From positions 55,166 to 119,165 of the forward strand of contig JAMPEL010000001.1 of NCBI GenBank assembly GCA_023665185.1: 64,000 nucleotides of DNA. Reading direction: 5' to 3'. A program made the translations under genes and the position numbers. The stretch is from Roseburia sp. Its GTDB lineage: Bacteria; Bacteroidota; Bacteroidia; Bacteroidales; Bacteroidaceae. A model generated the notes under the pieces. That model was not told the origin of the DNA and did not search any database. It was given only the letters and a program-made list of their open reading frames with translations. Positions 14,590 through 61,375 of this stretch are shown here, piece after piece (position 1 is the stretch's first letter; each line of letters starts with the position of its first letter).

Positions 14590-15696
14590 CTATTTCTTTC
14601 TTATCTGTTCATAATAGGCATCCAGCAGATGTTTTGCTGCGACAAAAGAAGTAACCCTTCCGTCCAGTACCTGTTCTGATAAAGTGCCAAGCATGTCCTT
14701 TACCGTTGGATTGTAATAGAAATCATTGCGTAAATGTTCGTTTATGCTTTCATACATCCAATATTTCGACTGTTCGTTTCTGCGGTATTGGAAGTATCCG
14801 TTCTTTTTCACCTCATCGATGTAGTCGAAAATCATTTTCAGCACTTCGTCAATGCCTATCTCGTAGAAACCTGAGTAGCAAAGCACTTTGGGCAACACAC
14901 CACTTTCCGGTTTGGGAAACAGGTGCAATGCGTTGCGGAAATGGGTGGCGGCAAGCTGGGCTTTGTCTATATTGCTGCCATCGGCTTTGTTTATGACAAT
15001 GCCGTCTGCAATTTCCATGATGCCGCGCTTGATTCCCTGAAGCTCATCTCCAGTGCCCGCCAATTGTATGAGCAGGAAAAAGTCCACCATCGAATGACAT
15101 GCCGTTTCGCTCTGTCCGACACCGACTGTCTCTACAAATATATTGTCGTATCCGGCAGCCTCACAAAGAATGATTGTTTCTCTTGTTTTCCGTGCCACAC
15201 CTCCCAAAGAGCCTGCTGTCGGGCTGGGACGGATAAATGATTTGGGATGGACTGCCAGTTTTTCCATTCTTGTTTTGTCACCAAGAATACTGCCTTTTGT
15301 CTTTTCCGAACTTGGGTCAATAGCAAGGACTGCCAGTTTTCCGCCATAATTCTCAAGCAGGTGCATTCCAAATGCGTCAATGGAGGTGCTTTTACCGGCG
15401 CCTGGTACACCGCTGATGCCCACTCGGATGGAATTGCCAGAGTAAGGCAGGCATTTTTCTATAACCTCTTGTGCCAGCACTTGATGCTCAGGCAACACAC
15501 TTTCAACGAGCGTGACAGCCTGACTCAATATTGAAACATCACCTTTGATGATTCCTTCAGCATATTCACCGGCAGAAAGAAGTTTGGCTCTTTTCTTTCT
15601 GAACCTGCTGAGATAAGGATTTACTATTGCCGGTTGAGCCACTCCGCTGTTTACTGTAAGCCCTTTATATTCTTCACTGTTTTCCGGATGTTCCAT
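14590..15696 (-). CDS. meaB: Methylmalonyl-CoA mutase-associated GTPase MeaB (ArgK family)
   Basis: This 368-residue G3E-family GTPase gates B12 cofactor loading and protects methylmalonyl-CoA mutase. It has Walker A GISGVPGAGKST, the Mg-binding DPSS and ETVGVGQSE motifs, and the NKADG base-recognition motif. The C-terminal arm for dimerisation is present. It serves the mutase encoded by mutA-mutB, which lies about 42 kb away in this window. It precedes porQ by 64 bases on the same strand. Confidence 0.93.
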   Translation of the reverse strand: MEHPENSEEYKGLTVNSGVAQPAIVNPYLSRFRKKRAKLLSAGEYAEGIIKGDVSILSQAVTLVESVLPEHQVLAQEVIEKCLPYSGNSIRVGISGVPGAGKSTSIDAFGMHLLENYGGKLAVLAIDPSSEKTKGSILGDKTRMEKLAVHPKSFIRPSPTAGSLGGVARKTRETIILCEAAGYDNIFVETVGVGQSETACHSMVDFFLLIQLAGTGDELQGIKRGIMEIADGIVINKADGSNIDKAQLAATHFRNALHLFPKPESGVLPKVLCYSGFYEIGIDEVLKMIFDYIDEVKKNGYFQYRRNEQSKYWMYESINEHLRNDFYYNPTVKDMLGTLSEQVLDGRVTSFVAAKHLLDAYYEQIRKK

Positions 15697-27312: not shown

Positions 27313-27316
27313 ATGT

Positions 27317-27387
27317 TGGGATACCTGGGCTCGAACCAAGAATAACAGGACCAGAATCTGTTGTGTTGCCAATTACACCATATCCCA
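27317..27387 (-). tRNA. tRNA-Gln (anticodon CTG), downstream copy
   Basis: A 71-base cloverleaf on the minus strand: acceptor stem tgggata/tatccca, D arm gtgtaattggcaacac, anticodon stem acaga/cctgt with loop ttctggt (anticodon ctg), and T arm with ggttcgagccc. The 31-39 pair is an A-C mismatch. CCA is not encoded. Identical in sequence to the upstream copy, from which it is separated by 48 bases. Confidence 0.93.
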
Positions 27388-27435
27388 AAAAATCAGTTTA
27401 TGCGAGCGCCGCTTGCAAAGCCTTGTCTGATGTGT

Positions 27436-27506
27436 TGGGATACCTGGGCTCGAACCAAGAATAACAGGACCAGAATCTGTTGTGTTGCCAATTACACCAT
27501 ATCCCA
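27436..27506 (-). tRNA. tRNA-Gln (anticodon CTG), upstream copy
   Basis: Identical 71-base tRNA gene to the one at 27317-27387. Both should be cut from one precursor, made from the promoter at 27545-27575 and ended at 27278-27312. Confidence 0.93.
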
Positions 27507-35537: not shown

Positions 35538-36700
35538 CATCCGACATTTCGAGTGATTTGTCTTGTTCTTTATAGAGTTGAGTTTTGATGCAGGTGATGT
35601 TTTGCTGATGGGTTTGACTGGATACTTACTTTTTGTAGATATATTCCTGACGGATGTTTTTGATGTATTCAGACAGACTTATTGACTTTTTGTAAGTTTG
35701 TTTTGACAGACTCCTCCGTCACTTCGTGACACCTTCTCTAATTTAGGGGAGGAGCTGTATACATTGTCAATCAATACATTAGTTTCTCTGCGAACATGGT
35801 AACCAGGCTCCTCCCCTAAGTTAGGGGAGGTGTCACGAAGTGACGGAGGAGTCTGTCAAAAACATCAGCAAAATATTGAATTTTCTAACAATTTGATATG
35901 TTAAACTCCGACTCCGTAGAATCGCCTCAAAATGAACCGCACCTTGCCTCGGTTGCAAAAACGCGATTCTACGGAGGGTTTTGAACTCCGAAAACAGAGC
36001 GGACAAACAGAACAATTCATGCGACTAAAAGATATATAAATTCCCTCCGAAACATGCCTTTCCCACCCAAAAGCCCGCTAAAACCCAAAATTACAAGGTG
36101 CTGAAAATTTATTTCCAAGGCGCACTGATTTTTTTCGCAAGGTGAACAAAATTTATTTTCAAGGTGAACAAAATTTTCAAAGCCCGTTTTTCGGCCCAAA
36201 ATCGGGCATTTTTCCGAATCACTGCCTCAAAAAGAAGAAAATCAACTTTTCTATGCCCCGAAAAACAAAAATGGATTTTGAACCCGAAAAAAGACAATTT
36301 TAAGATAATATTTTCATAACTCTCTGATTATCAATACATCCTATTTTGACTCTAACCATGCGTTTTACGTCAAAAACAGCACACTTTTCGCTAAAAACAC
36401 ATTTAACTGATTATCAGTGACTTATCAATAAAACATTCAAAATCAAGCATTGAGCCAAAGTCGGCAGCCGCCCCAAATGTTAAAATTCGCCCTCCTTTCC
36501 AAAGTGACATAATGTCAAAACTACCCTTGCCCGCATACTGTTGTCCTGCAACATGTGCGGCAGAATGGTTCAGGATTGGGACTTCCGTTTATAAAGCGCA
36601 TACAAGTGGCACAATGGATGCGTGTTGTGTGGAGACGCTGCAATATCTTTGATACAGGCTATGCATATAGTGTGTCGTATCACTCGAATGTCGGATGAAC
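35538..36700 (+). repeat. R1 long non-coding repeat, copy 2, with terminal inverted repeats
   Basis: The longest R1 copy, in the opposite orientation to copy 1 and the same as copy 3. Its ends are inverted repeats: ctcatccgacatttcgagtg at 35538 and cactcgaatgtcggatga at 36681-36698, about 20 bases, with further similarity outward (ttttttg/caaaaat). Inside are the nested palindrome (35705-35857), the ccgtagaatcgc hairpin (35914-35974), caaggtg-type tandem units (36095-36180), two tgattatca motifs (near 36326 and 36408) and tgacataatgtca (36505-36517). It has no gene. Identity to copy 1 is very high near the hairpin and lower toward the edges. Confidence 0.82.
35705..35857. repeat. Nested 153-bp palindromic element in R1 copy 2
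   Basis: Same element as at 19938-20089. The left arm here is slightly degraded (accttctctaatttagg) while the right arm is intact (cctaagttaggggagg), so the pairing is imperfect in the middle. Confidence 0.75.
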
Positions 36701-36907
36701 CTCCAAAAATATGCAGGAGGTATTGCAGGCAGATTCAGCTCTTTCCGTATTTTCCCGGTTCTATATCGACTTTTTTCTGAAAAACTTATTCGTTATACGA
36801 CAAATCTCTGTAATTTTGTCTTTAGCAATCATTGTTTGTGGTTCTTCATTTCTTTGATTGCCAACTGTGGAACACGCTTAAACCATGCAAGGAATTCTGC
36901 ATCTTGC

Positions 36908-36931
36908 ATGAGTCTGTGCTGTCAGACTCAT
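36908..36931 (+). promoter_or_regulatory. Leader hairpin upstream of the cobN-like gene
   Basis: Perfect 9-bp stem atgagtctg/cagactcat with loop tgctgt, ending 39 bases before the start codon. It may affect translation or be chance. No T-run follows. Confidence 0.35.
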
Positions 36932-36970
36932 TTATATATAAAGATAATAGACTGGCATTTTCAATTGGAT

Positions 36971-39900
36971 ATGAACAAGAAAATAATTTGTCTGTCAGCC
37001 GTTGTGCTGACAATCATAGTGTGCGCGGTGGCATACAGATATTGGTTGGCACCGACACGGATACTTATGGTCAATTTCTCATCGGCACAAATAGCCGATA
37101 TAGCTTTGAATAATGATTCGCGCAGCATAAAAGTCGATTTTGCGGATGCGGAGAATGTGGGAGGCTTCGCCGGTTATGATGCTGTGATAATGTATGGCAG
37201 AAGACTGGTGCTGAGTGCGGAACAGCAGGACGAGTTGGAGCTGGCCGCCGATAAGGGAATACCCGTATTCACCAATTCGCCGCGCCGCTCAGAGAGTGCT
37301 TTCAACCGCAATCTCACCCAAGAGGAACGGGCAATGCTGCAAATGTATTTTGACAATGCTTGTCAGAAAAACTATCGCAATATGTTGCGATATATGCGCC
37401 ATATCGCCACTCCGCAGCGTGGGGGAGGGGATGATGTTGAGGCTCCGGTGGAACTGCCGCACAACTTGTTCTATCATCAGGAAGCTGGTCAGTATTTCCG
37501 CAGCCATGAGGAACTGACGGAATATTTAAGGCGGAAGCGGATGTATCATGAGCATGGATGCAATGTGGCGCTAATATCCGGCATCACCTTTCCGGTGGAG
37601 AGCAACCGGGCGCATGTGGATACGCTCATCTCGCGACTGACACAGGGCGGTTTTAATGTGTATCCCCTCACGGCAATGGGGAAGGAGCGTGAGGACATGT
37701 TGCACTCGTTGCATCCCGACGCTATTGTCTATTTTCCTATGGGCAGACTGGGCGATGACGAGCTGGTGAAGTGGGCGCATCGGGAAAATATATTGATATT
37801 CAGTCCGTTTATTGTGTCGCAGCCTCGTAAGGAGTGGCTTGATGTGAGTACTCCTGTCAGTGGTGGGACAATGACTGCGCGTCTGGTGATTCCTGAGATA
37901 GATGGATGCATCTCCCCCTTGTGCATAGCCACACAGGAAGAGGATGAGAACGGCTATTTCTTATGGACTCCGGTGCCGGAACGTGTGGATGCTTTTATGG
38001 ACAATTTCACCCGGCATATTGCCCTGCGCCGTATGCCGAACAAGGATAAACGTATCGCTATATGCTATTTTAAGTCACCGGGAAAGGACGATTTGCAGGC
38101 GAGCGGGATGGAAGTGGTGCCCTCGCTCTATAACTTTCTGAAGCGGCTGCGTGCCGAAGGATATGATGTCGGAGGGCTTCCCGCTGACGTGGAGACTTTC
38201 AGGCAACAGCTTTATAGGGACGGTTCTGTGATGGGCGCGTATGCCAAAGGGGCGCAGAAACGGTTTATGGACACAGCGCATCCGGTGTGGCTGACAAGCC
38301 GGCAGTATGAGGAATGGGCGCGCGAGACGTTGCTTCCCGAGAAATATAAGGAGGTGACAGACCGTTATGGAGACGCTCCGGGAAATTTGTTGGCAAGGGG
38401 CGACAGTATGGCAGTCGCTTGTCTGCAATTCGGCAATGTGTGGCTGTTTCCTCAGCCTCGTCCGGCATTGGGCGAGGACGAGTTCAAACTGGTACACGGA
38501 ATGCCGGTGGCTCCTCCACACAGCTATATCGCCCCATATCTTTATATGCTGAAGGGATTCAAGGCGGATGCGCTGATTCACTTCGGAACACATGGGAATC
38601 TGGAATTTACCCCGGGAAAGAATGTGGGACTGTCGCAAGCTGACTGGGCGGATGTGCTTGTAGGAAACCTGCCTCATTTCTATTTCTATACGACGGGGAA
38701 TGTGGGTGAGTCGGTTATTGCCAAAAGGCGCACACACGCTGTGCTTGTCACTTATCTTACTCCTCCATACGTGGAAAGCGGCATGAGACAACGGTATTCA
38801 GCCTTGCTCAGTGATATTCATAAGGTGTTGGAAAGCGGAGAAGGCAGTAGGGCGAGAGAGATGCGTGTCAAGAAAGAGGTGGTCAGACTGGGGTTGCACC
38901 GCAGTCTCGGACTGGACTCTGTGGCTGACAAGCCTTATACGCATGAGGAACTGGAACGCATCGACTGTTTTACGGAGGAGATTGCCAACGAGAAGATAAC
39001 CGGTGCATGTTATACAATGGGCGAACCGTATTCCGAGCGTGATTTGTGTACAACAGTGCTTGCTATGGCGGCAGATCCGCTTGCATACGAGATGGCGCGG
39101 CGCGATTGTGAAAGGGGTAGGATAAGCAGGGGACAATTGCAGGACTTTGCTTATATCGCTCATCATTATCTGCCGGAAGCGAAATGGCGGTTGGAGCGAT
39201 TGTTGCAGAATCCTCCGTCAGACACAGTCTCGGTGGAGCCTGAGCTTCGTCAGGCTTTGCTGTATTATAGGCAATTGAAAGAATCTACAAGGAATGAGTT
39301 TGATACTATGGTACGTGCCCTGAATGGCGGTAGTGTGTGTCCTGCTCCGGGCGGCGACCCCGTGCTGAATCCGAATGTGCTGCCCACAGGCAGGAACATG
39401 TATAGTGTCAATGCCGAGACATCGCCCAATGCACAAGCTTGGGAAGACGGTAAGCGGCTGGCGGAGACAACTCTGATGCAATATATGAACCGGCATGGAG
39501 AGTATCCGCATAAAGTGAGTTATACGTTCTGGGCTGGAGAGTTTATCGCTACGGAAGGAGCTACGCTGGCACAGGCTTTCTGGATGATTGGGGTGGAGCC
39601 TGTGCGTGACAGTCAGGGACATGTGGTCGATTTGCGTCTTGTTCCGGAAAATGAGTTGTGCCGTCCGCGCATAGATGTGGTGGTGCAAGTGTCGGGACAG
39701 TTGCGCGACATTGCCGCTTCGCGGCTCAAATTGCTGACGAAAGCGGTGGCGCTGGCGGCTGAGGCTGAACATGAGCTTTATCCAAACTTTGTGGCGGAGG
39801 GGACTTTGTCGCAAGAGAAACAACTGGTAGCCAAAGGACTGTCACCGAAAGAAGCAAGAAAAATGGCGGGTATGCGGGTGTTCGGACCTGTAAACAGCGG

Positions 39901-40879
39901 ATACAGCACCGGCATCATGGGCTATGTGGAAAACAGTGGAGCGTGGGATGACGAGAATGAGATTGCGGAAGGATACCTGAACAACATGGGAGCCGTATAT
40001 GGTGATGATGAGAATTGGGGCGACTGTAAGAACGGGGTTTTTGCGGCAGCTCTTGCAAAGACCGATGTCGTGGTGCAGCCCCGTCAGAGCAACACTTGGG
40101 GACCTGTTTCGCTTGACCATGTATATGAGTTTACGGGCGGACTGTCGCTGGCTGTAAGACACGTGACAGGAAAAGAACCGGATGCCTATATGGCTGATTA
40201 CAGGAATCGTATGAGCCGTAGGATGCAGAATGCCAAAGAGGCGGTGGCTGTGGAGACAAGGGCTACGATTCTCAATCCTACGTTTGTGAGGGAACGTATG
40301 AAAGGAGGAGCAGGAACAGCACAGCAGTTTGGAAAGACTTTTCGCAATATATTCGGTTGGCATGTTACCCGTCCTTCTTCGATGGACAAGAATTTGTTCA
40401 ACGACTTGTACGACATGTATATAAAAGATGAGAACGGGCTGGGGATATACGAGTATTTCCGCAAGGTGAATCCGGCGGCATTGCAGACAATCACTTCTGT
40501 CATGCTGGAAAGTGTGCGCAAGGGATATTGGAAGGCTTCTGAAGAACAGTTGAGGACTACTGTGGAGTTGCATACACGGATAACTTGCGAGGCGGGAGCT
40601 GCCTGTACGGAATTTGTGTGTGGAAATGCCAAATTGCAAGAGTTTATTGCCGGACAGCTGGATGAGAAATCGAGGCGGTCATATAATGCAGAAATGAGCG
40701 CGGTGCATGAATTGAGACAGGCGGGAAAGATGGATGTGGTGCTGAAAAAGCAGGAGCTGGTGTCCTTGCAGGATACATCAGAGTTGGTGAAAACCGGATG
40801 GGCTGCCGGAATCGTTGTGGCAGTATTGGTTATAGCAGGAACTATTGTCGTGAAGAAAAGGAAAAGAGAGCAAATATGA
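36971..40879 (+). CDS. Membrane-anchored CobN/HmuS-like chelatase
   Basis: This 1302-residue protein belongs to the CobN/BchH family of large chelatase subunits. Core blocks include GFKADALIHFGTHGNLEFTPGK around residue 530, then LPHFYFYTTGNVGESVIAKRR and LTPPYVESG, and QPRQSNTWGPVSLDHVYEFTGGL in the C-terminal half. Unlike textbook CobN it has an N-terminal membrane segment (residues 5-22) and a C-terminal one (AAGIVVAVLVIAGTIVV) followed by KKRKREQI, so most of it should lie outside the cytoplasm, as in HmuS of Bacteroidota heme-uptake loci. It could insert cobalt or remove iron from heme. The cobB gene 66 bases downstream favours corrinoid work. The frame is open upstream to 36695; the start MNKKIICLSAVVL is at 36971. 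Confidence 0.82.
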   Translation: MNKKIICLSAVVLTIIVCAVAYRYWLAPTRILMVNFSSAQIADIALNNDSRSIKVDFADAENVGGFAGYDAVIMYGRRLVLSAEQQDELELAADKGIPVFTNSPRRSESAFNRNLTQEERAMLQMYFDNACQKNYRNMLRYMRHIATPQRGGGDDVEAPVELPHNLFYHQEAGQYFRSHEELTEYLRRKRMYHEHGCNVALISGITFPVESNRAHVDTLISRLTQGGFNVYPLTAMGKEREDMLHSLHPDAIVYFPMGRLGDDELVKWAHRENILIFSPFIVSQPRKEWLDVSTPVSGGTMTARLVIPEIDGCISPLCIATQEEDENGYFLWTPVPERVDAFMDNFTRHIALRRMPNKDKRIAICYFKSPGKDDLQASGMEVVPSLYNFLKRLRAEGYDVGGLPADVETFRQQLYRDGSVMGAYAKGAQKRFMDTAHPVWLTSRQYEEWARETLLPEKYKEVTDRYGDAPGNLLARGDSMAVACLQFGNVWLFPQPRPALGEDEFKLVHGMPVAPPHSYIAPYLYMLKGFKADALIHFGTHGNLEFTPGKNVGLSQADWADVLVGNLPHFYFYTTGNVGESVIAKRRTHAVLVTYLTPPYVESGMRQRYSALLSDIHKVLESGEGSRAREMRVKKEVVRLGLHRSLGLDSVADKPYTHEELERIDCFTEEIANEKITGACYTMGEPYSERDLCTTVLAMAADPLAYEMARRDCERGRISRGQLQDFAYIAHHYLPEAKWRLERLLQNPPSDTVSVEPELRQALLYYRQLKESTRNEFDTMVRALNGGSVCPAPGGDPVLNPNVLPTGRNMYSVNAETSPNAQAWEDGKRLAETTLMQYMNRHGEYPHKVSYTFWAGEFIATEGATLAQAFWMIGVEPVRDSQGHVVDLRLVPENELCRPRIDVVVQVSGQLRDIAASRLKLLTKAVALAAEAEHELYPNFVAEGTLSQEKQLVAKGLSPKEARKMAGMRVFGPVNSGYSTGIMGYVENSGAWDDENEIAEGYLNNMGAVYGDDENWGDCKNGVFAAALAKTDVVVQPRQSNTWGPVSLDHVYEFTGGLSLAVRHVTGKEPDAYMADYRNRMSRRMQNAKEAVAVETRATILNPTFVRERMKGGAGTAQQFGKTFRNIFGWHVTRPSSMDKNLFNDLYDMYIKDENGLGIYEYFRKVNPAALQTITSVMLESVRKGYWKASEEQLRTTVELHTRITCEAGAACTEFVCGNAKLQEFIAGQLDEKSRRSYNAEMSAVHELRQAGKMDVVLKKQELVSLQDTSELVKTGWAAGIVVAVLVIAGTIVVKKRKREQI

Positions 40880-40945
40880 TGTATCTTCATTTTGTGTCTC
40901 TTGATTTCTTAGCGGATAATAATCATAAGATAAAAATATAATAGA

Positions 40946-42331
40946 ATGAAGTGTGTGTCGAATTTAATGATAGCGGCTGCAAGTTCCGGAAGCGGAAAAA
41001 CCACATTCACAATGGGACTGCTTCGTGCTCTTCGGAACAGGGGACTTGTTGTGCAGCCGTATAAGTGCGGACCAGACTATATTGATACTAAGTGGCATAC
41101 TTTGGCTGCTGGCAGAGAGTCGGTGAACCTTGACATCTGGATGGGTGGGAAAGAACATGTAAGAACTGTGTTCGGGAAATATTCCGAAGGTGCGGAGGTT
41201 TGTGTGACGGAAGGAGCTATGGGTATGTTCGACGGGCATGACAGAGCGCATGGAAGTAGTGCAGAGGTGGCTGGTGTGACGGGTGCGAAAACCATTCTTG
41301 TGGTGAATGCCAAGTCGGCAGCATACAGTGTGGCACCTATAATATACGGCTTCTGCTGTTTCAGCAGGAAGTATGGCACAGAAATAGCAGGTGTCGTATT
41401 CAATCAAATGGCCTCTGAAAGTCATTATGCTTTTTTGAAAGAGGCATGTCAGGATGCTGGAGTCGAATGTTTTGGATATATAAAAAAGGAAAAGGACATA
41501 GAATTGCCCTCGCGCCATCTGGGTCTGACGATAGACGAGCGTTTTCGCGTAGACTCTTTCATTGAGCGCGTGGCAGGAATGGTGGAGCAGACGGTGGAGA
41601 TAGACAAAATTCTTCAGGCTGTTTCTATGCCTTTGGAACATAGGACGGAGTATGCAGATGCGTTCCATGTTGGTGCGGTTGGTAGTGGATTCCTGCCGCA
41701 GGCGCAAAAAAACTGTTTCCCGTTTTTTCCTGAACTGTGCCTGAAGCGTGTGGCTGTGGCAGATGACGAAGGTTTCAATTTTATATACCGTGCTAATATC
41801 GACAGTCTGAAAGCTCTTGGTGCGGAGATAGTTTTTTTCTCTCCGTGTAAAGACAAGGCATTGCCTGAACACGTGGATTTGCTGTATCTGCCTGGCGGTT
41901 ATCCTGAATTTTTTCTGGATGAGCTGGAAGCTAATGTGTCTATGAGACAGTCTGTACGTGAGTATATAGAGCAAGGAGGATATGCCTATGCCGAATGTGG
42001 TGGTATGCTTTATTTGTGCCGGTATATAACAGGAATGGAAGGCAGGTGTCATGAAATGGTCGGTGTACTTGACTTGGCAGCCACTTTCGATGGCATGAGA
42101 CTGCATCTTGGGTATCGAGAACTGAGAGCTTGTGGCGGAACGGACAGTGCGGATTTGCGGATACGAGGACACGAGTTTCATTATTCTGACATATTGGCAG
42201 GTGAATCCGTTATGCCTTCTGTCGGTATCCAATATTCGGCTAAAGGGAAAGAAATGGGAACAACGCTTTTCAGATACAAAAATCTTATTGCCGGATACAC
42301 TCATTTCTATTGGGCGGCAGGTATTTTCTGA
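40946..42331 (+). CDS. cobB: Cobyrinate a,c-diamide synthase
   Basis: This 461-residue enzyme (CobB/CbiA family) amidates the a and c side chains of cobyrinate (or hydrogenobyrinate) using glutamine and ATP. The N-terminal synthetase half has MIAAASSGSGKTTFTMGLLRAL (P-loop) and YKCGPDYIDTKWH, followed by TEGAMGMFDG. The C-terminal class I glutamine amidotransferase half has YLPGGYPEFFLDEL and YAECGGMLYL with the catalytic Cys, and the late RGHEFHYSDI and TH (GYTHFYWA). It is 66 bases downstream of the CobN-like gene and probably in one operon. CbiA (anaerobic) and CobB (aerobic) cannot be told apart by sequence alone. Confidence 0.93.
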   Translation: MKCVSNLMIAAASSGSGKTTFTMGLLRALRNRGLVVQPYKCGPDYIDTKWHTLAAGRESVNLDIWMGGKEHVRTVFGKYSEGAEVCVTEGAMGMFDGHDRAHGSSAEVAGVTGAKTILVVNAKSAAYSVAPIIYGFCCFSRKYGTEIAGVVFNQMASESHYAFLKEACQDAGVECFGYIKKEKDIELPSRHLGLTIDERFRVDSFIERVAGMVEQTVEIDKILQAVSMPLEHRTEYADAFHVGAVGSGFLPQAQKNCFPFFPELCLKRVAVADDEGFNFIYRANIDSLKALGAEIVFFSPCKDKALPEHVDLLYLPGGYPEFFLDELEANVSMRQSVREYIEQGGYAYAECGGMLYLCRYITGMEGRCHEMVGVLDLAATFDGMRLHLGYRELRACGGTDSADLRIRGHEFHYSDILAGESVMPSVGIQYSAKGKEMGTTLFRYKNLIAGYTHFYWAAGIF

Positions 42332-57268: not shown

Positions 57269-59431
57269 TTAGTCTTCATTCAAAATCTTCATGATTTCGC
57301 AAGCGGCTTTAGCTACGGAAGTACCAGGTCCGAAGATTGCTGCTACTCCTGCCTGATACAAGAAATCATAGTCTTGTGCAGGAATAACACCACCGGCAAT
57401 GACAAGAATGTCTTCGCGTCCGAGTTTCTTCAACTCTTCAATAACCTGTGGTACAAGTGTCTTGTGTCCTGCGGCCAACGAGCTTACACCAAGTACGTTG
57501 ACATCGTTTTCAACTGCCTGACGTGCAGATTCTGCCGGAGTCTGGAACAATGGTCCCATATCTACATCGAATCCGCAGTCTGCATATCCTGTAGCACATA
57601 CTTTTGCACCACGGTCATGTCCGTCCTGTCCCATTTTTGCAATCATGATACGTGGGCGACGACCATTCTTTTGTGCGAATTGTTCTGTCAGCTGACAAGC
57701 CACCTCAAAGTCCTTGTCGCTCTTGCTTTCTGATGAATACACGTTACTGATAGTTCTGATTACTGCTTTATAGCGACCTGCAACAGCCTCGCAAGCGTCT
57801 GAGATTTCACCAAGTGAGCAACGCAGTCCGGCTGCTTTCACAGCAAGGTCAAGAAGATTGTTCTCTGATTTCTTTCCGTTCTTAAACTCTTGAACACACT
57901 TGGTGATTTCAGCAAGTGCCGCTTTGCAAGCTTCTTCATCGCGGTTAGCGCGAAGTTCGGCAAGAGACACTTCCTGCTGTTTACGTACAGCAGTGTTGTC
58001 TACTTCAAGAATATCGATAGGGTCTTCGTGTTCCAGACGGTACTTGTTGATACCGACAATTGTCTGTGCTCCTGAGTCTATACGAGCTTGAGTACGTGCT
58101 GCTGCTTCCTCAATACGCATCTTAGGCAGACCTGTCTCAATAGCTTTTGCCATACCGCCAAGTTTCTCGATTTCCTGTATGTGTTCCCATGCTTTGTGTA
58201 CAATCTCGTTTGTGAGAGTCTCCACATAATAAGAACCTGCCCACGGGTCGATTTGCTTACATACTTTGGTCTCATTCTGTATGTAAATCTGTGTGTTACG
58301 TGCGATACGTGCAGAAAAGTCCGTAGGCAGTGCAATTGCCTCGTCAAGGGCATTTGTATGGAGTGACTGTGTATGTCCGAGTACGGCAGCCATAGCTTCT
58401 ATACATGTACGACCTACATTGTTGAATGGATCTTGCTCTGTAAGCGACCATCCTGAAGTCTGAGAGTGTGTACGGAGAGCCATTGATTTAGGGTTCTTTG
58501 CACCGAAACTTTTTACTATTTTAGCCCAAAGAAGACGTCCTGCACGCATTTTTGCAATCTCCATGAAGTGGTTCATTCCGATAGCCCAGAAGAAAGAAAG
58601 GCGTGGTGCAAAAGCATCAATGTCAATGCCTGCATTTACACCTGCACGAAGATAGTCCATACCGTCTGCGAGGGTATATGCAAGTTCAATATCTGCTGTG
58701 GCACCTGCTTCTTGCATGTGATAGCCGGAAATGGATATAGAGTTGAACTTCGGCATTTTCTGTGAAGTGTACTCGAAAATGTCCGCAATTATTTTCATTG
58801 AGAATGCAGGTGGGTAGATATAAGTATTGCGCACCATGAATTCTTTCAGAATATCGTTCTGTATAGTTCCTGCCATTTCCTCAAGCTTTGCACCCTGTTC
58901 AAGTCCTGCATTGATATAAAAAGCAAGTATTGGAAGTACTGCGCCATTCATTGTCATAGATACAGACATCTTGTTGAGCGGAATACCTGCGAACAACACC
59001 TTCATGTTCTCCAATGAACATATTGACACACCAGCTTTTCCTACATCGCCTACCACTCGCTCGTTATCCGGATCGTATCCTCTGTGAGTTGGAAGGTCGA
59101 ACGCGACGGAAAGACCTTTCTGTCCGCTTGCTAAGTTACGGCGATAGAACGCATTTGATTCTTCTGCCGTAGAAAAGCCTGCATACTGACGGATTGTCCA
59201 GGGACGGAATGGGTACATCATTGAGTATGGACCACGCAAATAAGGAGGAATACCCGCTGTATAGTCAAGGTGTTCCATTCCTTCAAGGTCTTCTTTTGTG
59301 TAAACAGGCTGTATGTCTATCTGCTCTGGAGTTCTCCAGTTAGCGGATATGCTGTTTTCTTTCTGCCATTCTTGACCGTTTTTGGTCTGTATGCCGGCAT
59401 ATATATCTATATCATTAAAATTTTTTCTCAT
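57269..59431 (-). CDS. mutB: Methylmalonyl-CoA mutase, large (catalytic) subunit
   Basis: This 720-residue adenosylcobalamin enzyme interconverts succinyl-CoA and methylmalonyl-CoA in propionate production. The N-terminal TIM barrel has the substrate motif [21 protein letters not shown] and [17 protein letters not shown]; the C-terminal B12-binding domain has [12 protein letters not shown] (DxHxxG, the lower-ligand His) near residue 595, and the GGVIPAQD and [10 protein letters not shown] loops at the end. The length is normal. It follows mutA after 81 bases on the minus strand. Confidence 0.96.
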
Positions 59432-59512
59432 TGTCTTTTTCTATTGGGAACACAGCCGTTTTTCTCTTGTCTTTTTACAAGGGAATTTGTGCTTTGTGTT
59501 CTAAAAAGCAAA

Positions 59513-61375
59513 TTAATTGATACCCAATTTGTTGTTGTAAGCTTTCAGCGTTTCAAGCTGGTTTACACGTACATGGATGAAATTCTCTATACCGGCAGCC
59601 TTTAACTCTTCGCTACATGCAGGAGCACCCGCCACGACAAACATTGCGCGGTTATTGAGTGCCTTGAATGCAGGTATGGCATATTCTGCATATTCGTCAT
59701 CACTTGAACAGATGACAACGATGTCGGCTTGTGCTTTCATTGCAGCTTCAACTCCTTCTTCCACAGTCGGGAATCCGAGGTTGTCAATTACTTTATAGCC
59801 TGCGCATGCAAGGAAGTTACAAGAGAATTGTGCGCGTGCCTGTCTCATGGCGAGATTGCCTATTGTAAGCATAAATGCAACAGGTTGTTTACCTGAATTT
59901 TCAGTAGCAAGGCGAAGATTTTCAAACTCACTTGCCAAACGGCTCTTGTCAAGTGTAACAATGGTTGCTTCTTCTGCATGGTGTCCGCATCCGCACTTAC
60001 ATCCGCTTGTAGGAGTCTTTCCTTCTGATTTTTCTGTGAAGTTAGGGAACTGGTTTGTTCCGAGCATGAATTCCTTGCGTTTTGCCGCATTGGCATGACG
60101 TGTCTTGTTTGATGCGTTTACTGCTTCCTGAATCTTTCCTTCCAGTGAGAGTGCCAAGAATCCTCCGTTGTTCTCCACATCAAGGAATAGTTTCCATGCT
60201 TCTTTTGCTATCGCATCAGTAAGGTGTTCTATATAATATGAGCCACCGGCAACGTCTACAATCTTATCAAAGTGAGCCTCTTCCTTCAACAGCAGTTGCT
60301 GGTTGCGCGCCAGACGCTCTGAGAACTCATCCGGAGTCTTATATGGCTTGTCAAAAGGAGTGACAATGATTGAGTCTACATTTGCTATAGCGGCAGACAT
60401 AGCTTCTGTTTGTGAGCGGAGCAGGTTTACATAGCTGTCATACATTGTCTGGTTATATTCTGTCGTGATGGCACACACATGCATACGACAAGCACAGTCG
60501 CATTTTGGCTCATACTGTTTTACCACCTGCGCCCAAAGCATACGTGCCGCACGGAACTTGGCAATTTCAAGGAAATAATTTTCGCTTACTCCCATATTGA
60601 ACTTTATTCTTTTTGCCACGTCTGTTGCATCCATTCCGGCATCAGTCAGCTGCTGCAAGTACTCGTTGCCCCATGCCAATGCATATCCGAGTTCCTGATA
60701 AATGAAAGCGCCTGCATTGTTGAGTGATACACTGTTGATATTTATGCAGCGGTATTTTGGCAACTCAGCAAGTGCCTCTGCCAAATCCTTACTCTTTGCA
60801 ATAATACCGGAAGTGTTTTTGCCTTTTACCAGAATCTTTTCTATCGGGTCGAAGTTGATACTTCCTTCAAGCTCTTCGAGTTTGACACCCTTGTTCTTGA
60901 AATATTTTACAAGGAGGTTTGCCAACTCCACACAATGGCATTGGCATGTCTTGAAGTTGAGTTCTACACATTCCGGACAGATGTCTTTAAGGAGAGTCTC
61001 CACCATCTCCTCATTGATCATGCTTGAAGGAATTGAGAATCCAAGTGAGTTGACACCCTTGTTCAGGATGTCAAGTGCTTTCTCATTGGCAGATTTTGCA
61101 TCGTCTACCACAATGTCCTGACGAACATACCAAAGGTTGTTGTCTTTTTTGTTTCCGCGGACGAATGGATATTCTCCCGGCATTGAGTCTATAGCCTTGA
61201 GTCCTTCCAAATCTTCTTTACGGTAAAAAGGCTGTACATTGAAGCCTTCGCCGGTTCTCCACACCAGCTTCTTCTCAAAGTCTGCACCTTTCAGGTCAAC
61301 TTGAATTTTGTCAAGCCACTCCTGTGTGGTAGGTGACTGAAACTCCTCGAAGAGTTTTTCTCTACTATTAGCCAT
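59513..61375 (-). CDS. mutA: Methylmalonyl-CoA mutase, small subunit
   Basis: This 620-residue partner of MutB has the same fold but no B12 ligand: the C-terminal domain lacks the DxHxxG motif. It has TRTGEGFNVQPFYRKEDLEGL-like residues (GEGFNVQPFYRKEDLEGLKAID) near the N-terminus. Unusually Cys-rich segments are Cys133-Cys148 (CPECVELNFKTCQCHC), residues 292-301 (CDCACRMHVC) and residues 459-466 (CKCGCGHH). Such Cys clusters occur in relatives from the phylum as I recall; their role is unknown. It is the first gene of the mutA-mutB pair with its own promoter (61417-61448). Confidence 0.93.
   Translation of the reverse strand: MANSREKLFEEFQSPTTQEWLDKIQVDLKGADFEKKLVWRTGEGFNVQPFYRKEDLEGLKAIDSMPGEYPFVRGNKKDNNLWYVRQDIVVDDAKSANEKALDILNKGVNSLGFSIPSSMINEEMVETLLKDICPECVELNFKTCQCHCVELANLLVKYFKNKGVKLEELEGSINFDPIEKILVKGKNTSGIIAKSKDLAEALAELPKYRCININSVSLNNAGAFIYQELGYALAWGNEYLQQLTDAGMDATDVAKRIKFNMGVSENYFLEIAKFRAARMLWAQVVKQYEPKCDCACRMHVCAITTEYNQTMYDSYVNLLRSQTEAMSAAIANVDSIIVTPFDKPYKTPDEFSERLARNQQLLLKEEAHFDKIVDVAGGSYYIEHLTDAIAKEAWKLFLDVENNGGFLALSLEGKIQEAVNASNKTRHANAAKRKEFMLGTNQFPNFTEKSEGKTPTSGCKCGCGHHAEEATIVTLDKSRLASEFENLRLATENSGKQPVAFMLTIGNLAMRQARAQFSCNFLACAGYKVIDNLGFPTVEEGVEAAMKAQADIVVICSSDDEYAEYAIPAFKALNNRAMFVVAGAPACSEELKAAGIENFIHVRVNQLETLKAYNNKLGIN

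Follow-up and report, generated by a model that had tools for sequence, protein, structure and literature searches.

What is the large CobN-family protein encoded beside a B12 gene in this genome of a gut Bacteroidaceae species, and on which ring does it act? The window, meaning the whole stretch of 64,000 nucleotides that was analyzed, carries a gene that automatic annotation would name as the subunit of an ordinary cytoplasmic CobN cobaltochelatase, directly upstream of cobB. The original prediction instead described a CobN-family core with a membrane helix at each end, placed outside the cytoplasm, akin to HmuS and linked to B12 over ordinary heme uptake. Sequence comparison, phylogeny and the loci of related genes were used to evaluate these claims.

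A membrane-anchored relative of HmuS

The open reading frame at 36971..40879 on the plus strand, as are all features of the gene described below, begins with ATG and encodes 1302 amino acids with zero internal stops. The Pfam family CobN-Mg_chel (PF02514) matches residues 126-1194 with 958 bits. An alternative, longer reading frame starting at 36695 was discarded because orthologues start just ahead of the N-terminal helix. Hydropathy typical of membrane helices (Kyte-Doolittle) was observed in two segments only, residues about 4-22 (36980..37036, maximum 2.43) and residues about 1276-1294, which with the basic tail KKRKREQI occupy 40796..40876 (maximum 2.47); all other segments reach at most 1.15. 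Basic residues flank both helices on the expected cytoplasmic side, so that by the positive-inside rule the core is predicted to lie in the periplasm. A periplasmic core is likewise predicted in the literature for HmuS and BtuS. Both the two-helix architecture and the extracytoplasmic placement that had been proposed are thus borne out by the reading frame, Pfam and hydropathy.

The best solved relative is HmuS (PDB 9d26), matched over nearly the full length with 1226 bits, compared to 391 bits for ChlH and 338 bits for CobN. None of the NCBIfam equivalog cut-offs for CobN or BchH was reached (626 vs 1248 and 451.5 vs 822 for CobN, 603 vs 829 for BchH/ChlH, others likewise). A phylogeny against CobN, HmuS and BchH, which the original prediction had proposed as a check, was built as one FastTree run on a trimmed MAFFT alignment and places the protein inside the HmuS heme-dechelatase family and not with CobN, which supports the suspected kinship with HmuS. 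The HmuS/BtuS-type set comprises 56 sequences, 18 of them in a clade with support 1.0 that includes the window protein and locus L205, and 38 others; L213, a duplicate of L004, was not counted separately. Locus L218 was considered for the clade and excluded, as it falls outside and retains Met79 and His254. Locus L003 gave a weak PF02514 match of 22.5 bits, under the cut-off.

The name CobN does have a basis, since Pfam and NCBIfam CobN models match the protein and the HFGTHG motif is common to both. However, the equivalog scores lie far under their cut-offs, the tree position is within HmuS, the protein is anchored in the membrane at both ends, residues at the site of HmuS His1209 differ in the CobN outgroups, and no CobS or CobT was recognized nearby. 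We regard a cytoplasmic CobN identity as refuted by scores, clade and topology, with next to no probability left to it. The magnesium chelatase subunit ChlH/BchH shares the Pfam family and the fold, but the window protein scores below the cut-off for that family, is membrane-anchored, and has no recognized ChlI or ChlD nearby. Among the window's reading frames (ten scanned by Pfam, the rest read by eye) no gene resembling ChlI, ChlD, CobS or CobT was recognized, in agreement with the prediction; the AAA proteins among the ten are FtsH and DnaX. The missing ATPase partners are to be expected, because HmuS takes iron out of heme without them (PMC12583661).

One more apparently extracytoplasmic CobN occurs outside the Bacteroidota. 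A Diaphorobacter plasmid encodes a CobN (L175, 493-4530) with a signal peptide-like start and a C-terminal helix, flanked by two TonB receptors. A very divergent second CobN-family protein (29% identical) in genome G405 (L153, 7538-11380) groups with this plasmid protein, not with HmuS; the same genome also has a canonical HmuS.

The clade ties the window protein to a known type. BtuS1 and BtuS2 have been described in B. fragilis, with BtuS1 (BF638R_2504/2505) named in 2019 (Rocha et al., PMC6460266), and BtuS2 is HmuS. As summarized there from Rodionov et al. (2003), BtuS is a third CobN-related type with a predicted role in metalloporphyrin salvage; a length of about 1320 residues can be deduced from the btuS1 clone as published, and cbiK lies within the btuS1 operon (PMC6460266). 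The riboswitch at L205 spans 2956033-2956279, compared to 2956033-2956280 published for B. fragilis NCTC 9343 (PMC10100974), which identifies L205 as that strain. Its BtuS1 falls in the window clade, shares 64% identity with the window protein, belongs to the same length class, carries the same residues at all scored sites and both anchors, and likewise has no methionine-rich insertion. Judged by sequence and tree position, the window protein is an orthologue of B. fragilis BtuS1, not a CobN, and we refer to its gene as btuS1.

Residues shared with and lost from HmuS

In the published definition of the HmuS family, domain IV carries a methionine-rich insertion and heme is held at site 1 by Met79 and His254; the catalytic cleft is lined by His538 and His1209, of which His538 is essential for heme turnover (PMC12583661). 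Alignment demonstrated that these cleft residues are conserved in the window protein. The HFGTHG motif (residues 537-542; 38579..38596) contains His541, corresponding to HmuS His538 (PMC12583661), and the SLDHVYEFTGG motif (40109..40141) contains His1050, corresponding to His1209. Equivalents of Glu577, Asp1208, Glu1212, Gln1198, Ser1199 and Trp1202 are also retained, and the catalytic pair is kept in every clade member that is complete at those sites.

Site 1 differs. Arg77 (37199..37201) replaces Met79, Met257 (37739..37741) replaces His254, and at the domain IV junction (39218..39238) the methionine-rich insertion is missing, as indicated by the break in the phmmer alignment (query 752/755 vs chain 750/913) and by region lengths. 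The insertion and both site-1 ligands are absent across the 18 members of the clade, of which truncated L005 is uninformative on the insertion and the C-terminal residues. Clade members have Met, Leu or Val at position 254 and Arg, or in two cases Tyr, at position 79. The 38 sequences outside keep His254, and have Met79 nearly always and His in a few. Altogether 41 highly conserved positions separate the BtuS1 clade from canonical HmuS, and the clade-specific gains include Arg77, Arg105, Arg304 and His589. These gains would fit a ring with more carboxylates, which is only suggestive.

The authors of the HmuS study tie site 1 and the methionine-rich insertion to heme capture and reduction (PMC12583661); their loss makes heme less likely as the substrate of BtuS1. 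The genome also encodes a canonical HmuS of 1478 amino acids with all site-1 features on contig C119 (L039), followed by a membrane protein of HmuT size, so heme iron would already be served. No hmuYRSTUV operon was found around btuS1 among the window's reading frames. Together with the HmuS scores, the separate HmuS indicates that the window gene is a diverged companion of HmuS, with the same fold family, catalytic and partner residues and both anchors as HmuS of B. thetaiotaomicron (9d26) and BtuS2 of B. fragilis, but without Met79, His254 and the insertion, and in a B12 rather than an hmu context.

A second heme dechelatase, freeing heme iron like HmuS and set in a B12 context through shared regulation or metal balance, is therefore a rival to be weighed. 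HmuS is the closest characterized relative and its catalytic residues are retained, the hyp-ExbB-DUF2149 trio known from hmu is retained in several btuS1 operons, and in B. fragilis the loss of both btuS1 and btuS2 impairs growth with heme as sole iron source more than either single loss, which hints at some heme role (PMC6460266). The btuS1 single mutant, by contrast, grew on heme iron without a significant defect (PMC6460266), and this counts, along with the clade-wide loss of site 1 and the insertion, the HmuS already present in the genome and the cobalamin riboswitches described below in place of an iron-type context, against heme and, for the mutant result, in favor of a B12 ring. We consider a heme-iron role rather unlikely.

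B12-regulated operons and the source of the ring

In 12 of the 18 clade members (L004, L005, L041, L042, L205, L206, L207, L208, L209, L211, L214 and L215) the operon lies behind a cobalamin riboswitch; many members are closely related, so that these are not 12 independent events. For the window copy, L040, L212 and L216 the upstream scan found none; L210 is truncated by the end of its contig, and L217 lay outside the scan. The riboswitch contexts span at least four lineages (Bacteroides, a Mediterranea-named MAG, a Prevotellaceae MAG and genus g2). At canonical HmuS loci none was found (0/9, two of the nine loci being short). The usual gene order is TBDR, a BACON lipoprotein or one in the HmuY position, secreted CbiK, sometimes PepSY, BtuS1, a small membrane protein, ExbB and DUF2149. 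Gene content varies between loci, and several continue into cbiH(C), cbiET, cbiGF and cbiJD: TBDR, secreted CbiK and BtuS1 are followed by cbiH/ET/GF/JD in L004 and by cbiHC/ET/GF in L205 and L214. Since orthologues follow cobalamin riboswitches and adjoin corrin genes, the proposed link to B12 over ordinary heme uptake is supported. Every CbiK N-terminus that was read shows a signal peptide or lipobox. Such CbiK-family cobaltochelatases occur in Bacteroidaceae at L092 (4674-5582), L096 (9531-10568), L099, L100, L103 and L205, and mostly adjoin TonB receptors, in B12 operons that start with a riboswitch and that may or may not include BtuS1.

The window locus is arranged differently. The B. 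fragilis operon is riboswitch-headed and reads TBDR-CbiK-TBDR-PepSY-BtuS1-hyp-ExbB-DUF2149-cbiHC-cbiET-cbiGF, whereas the window gene is on its own ahead of cobB, lacking an adjacent TBDR, CbiK or ExbB. The cobB/cbiA gene for cobyrinate a,c-diamide synthase (40946..42331, plus strand, 461 amino acids; NF002204, 449.8 bits vs a cut-off of 254) encodes the only CobB found in the genome. The 66-bp gap between the two genes (40880..40945) holds no terminator-like site, which makes co-transcription plausible. A hidden riboswitch was sought in the 1.4-kb upstream region (35541..36970) by a relaxed Rfam scan and dismissed; the best matches, to two miRNA models and one sRNA model, were far under their cut-offs. 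This region, between a MATE transporter and btuS1, contains no convincing gene or Rfam RNA and may be a rearrangement point. Elsewhere in the window, two tRNA genes with identical scores lie 47 bases apart on the minus strand (27316-27506).

The adjacency to cobB, the main clue of the original prediction, proved peculiar to this genome. Congener G052 has cobB (77% identity) with the same downstream gene (98%) and, upstream, a HemW-like gene (named by eye) with no BtuS1 there. A conserved btuS1-cobB unit was dropped as an explanation, as cobB of G052 is syntenic alone and the other BtuS1 loci examined have no adjacent cobB. The pairing is lineage-specific and may follow a rearrangement. Nor does the expectation of a new arrangement hold, given the B. 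fragilis orthologue (PMC6460266) and the hmu-like operons preceded by cobalamin riboswitches that had already been noted (PMC10100974).

The genome otherwise encodes a corrin pathway: cbiL, a BtuF-like binding protein, cbiP and cobD (L059); cbiHC, cbiET, cobT and cobU (L093); cbiGF and cbiJD (L094); and btuC, btuD and secreted CbiK (L092). HemB was found in none of 10 genomes tested and HemC in none of 12, the window genome included in both (assemblies 72-100% complete where stated, window genome 99%), and the same queries match 11 of 14 control genomes, indicating that the search works. No SUMT was found in the window genome, where all TP-methylase matches are corrin enzymes and none reaches the SUMT cut-off. 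With the usual sirohydrochlorin route missing, the ring is probably imported; that its precursor is salvaged is a probable conclusion independent of BtuS1. Genes for methylmalonyl-CoA mutase subunits (named by eye) and MeaB (Pfam) are present in the window (57269-61375 and 14590-15696), and the organism probably uses B12.

The corrin pathway is present without BtuS1 in congeners G029 and G052, from which it follows that BtuS1 is not an essential step. G029 carries riboswitch-TBDR-CbiK lipoprotein-cbiL (L096, 7133-11428), and in the window genome the riboswitch directly precedes cbiL with no TBDR-CbiK pair (L059, 13660-14364). This single case could reflect a functional exchange of CbiK for BtuS1.

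A candidate step in tetrapyrrole salvage

Our leading reading, held tentatively and at a little short of even confidence, is that BtuS1 is an inner-membrane-anchored, periplasm-facing HmuS relative recruited to B12, which would remove metal from a scavenged non-heme tetrapyrrole and so feed B12 synthesis. An uptake operon under B12 control, in cells that do not make the ring themselves, points to a precursor ring of B12 as the substrate. For this reading we count the clade, the residue losses, the riboswitch frequencies (12/18 vs 0/9), the operons, the missing HemB, HemC and SUMT, the secreted CbiK and the separate HmuS. Against it stand the two congeners without BtuS1 and the window copy without a riboswitch or an adjacent TBDR, CbiK or ExbB, in addition to the double-mutant defect. 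We also know of no activity on non-heme tetrapyrroles in the family, which counts against it as well.

In the proposed mechanism, a salvaged metallo-tetrapyrrole, possibly siroheme or another sirohydrochlorin-level ring, would enter via the TonB receptor and, by analogy with HmuS, be held in the central cleft, flanked by His541 and His1050. Metal exchange there would be reversible and run toward removal as in HmuS, through acid-base action by the two histidines. Secreted CbiK would then re-metallate the freed ring with cobalt, and the cobalt-bearing ring would be imported into the cytoplasmic corrin pathway, where the neighboring cobB acts. We infer the direction of the reaction, its substrate and the order of steps, and removal appears likelier than insertion. 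The more specific form of this scheme, in which BtuS1 is the metal-removing entry step of siroheme or metallo-sirohydrochlorin salvage (TonB receptor, BtuS1, secreted CbiK, import, corrin pathway) and lets Bacteroidota without uroporphyrinogen III synthesis build B12, is possible but doubtful.

The reaction might instead run forward, with BtuS1 inserting cobalt into a scavenged ring in the periplasm before import, alone or with secreted CbiK. CobN and ChlH, which belong to the family, are forward chelatases, corrin genes share the operons, and every CbiK that was read had a secretion signal. Yet the nearest enzyme runs toward removal, CobN and ChlH need AAA+/VWA partners that were not recognized in the operons examined, and CbiK, a dedicated member of the cobaltochelatase family, already has its gene alongside; we judge insertion unlikely. 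Far less probable still is action on corrinoids themselves, such as cobalt removal or exchange in damaged or incomplete corrinoids within corrinoid salvage. The orthologues are B12-regulated and cobB adjoins the window gene, but the operons hold ring-building genes, not just late salvage genes, and cobalt is very hard to strip from corrins.

The BtuS1 type was already known from B. fragilis, and the window protein adds a further orthologue; for Bacteroidota generally, "CobN" annotations are misleading. Many Bacteroidota keep the corrin-ring pathway while missing the early tetrapyrrole steps. The missing precorrin-2 steps have been noted (PMC6461909), and a corrin pathway without early tetrapyrrole steps was described as an enigma in Porphyromonas gingivalis (Roper et al., 2000, as cited in PMC13227078). 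A B12-regulated dechelatase relative, together with a receptor, secreted CbiK and corrin genes, is a concrete candidate for ring acquisition, and it makes an old puzzle of B12 synthesis testable by a substrate test on one purified protein. If the siroheme-salvage scheme is true, BtuS1 would be a dechelatase whose substrate switched from heme to a B12 precursor.
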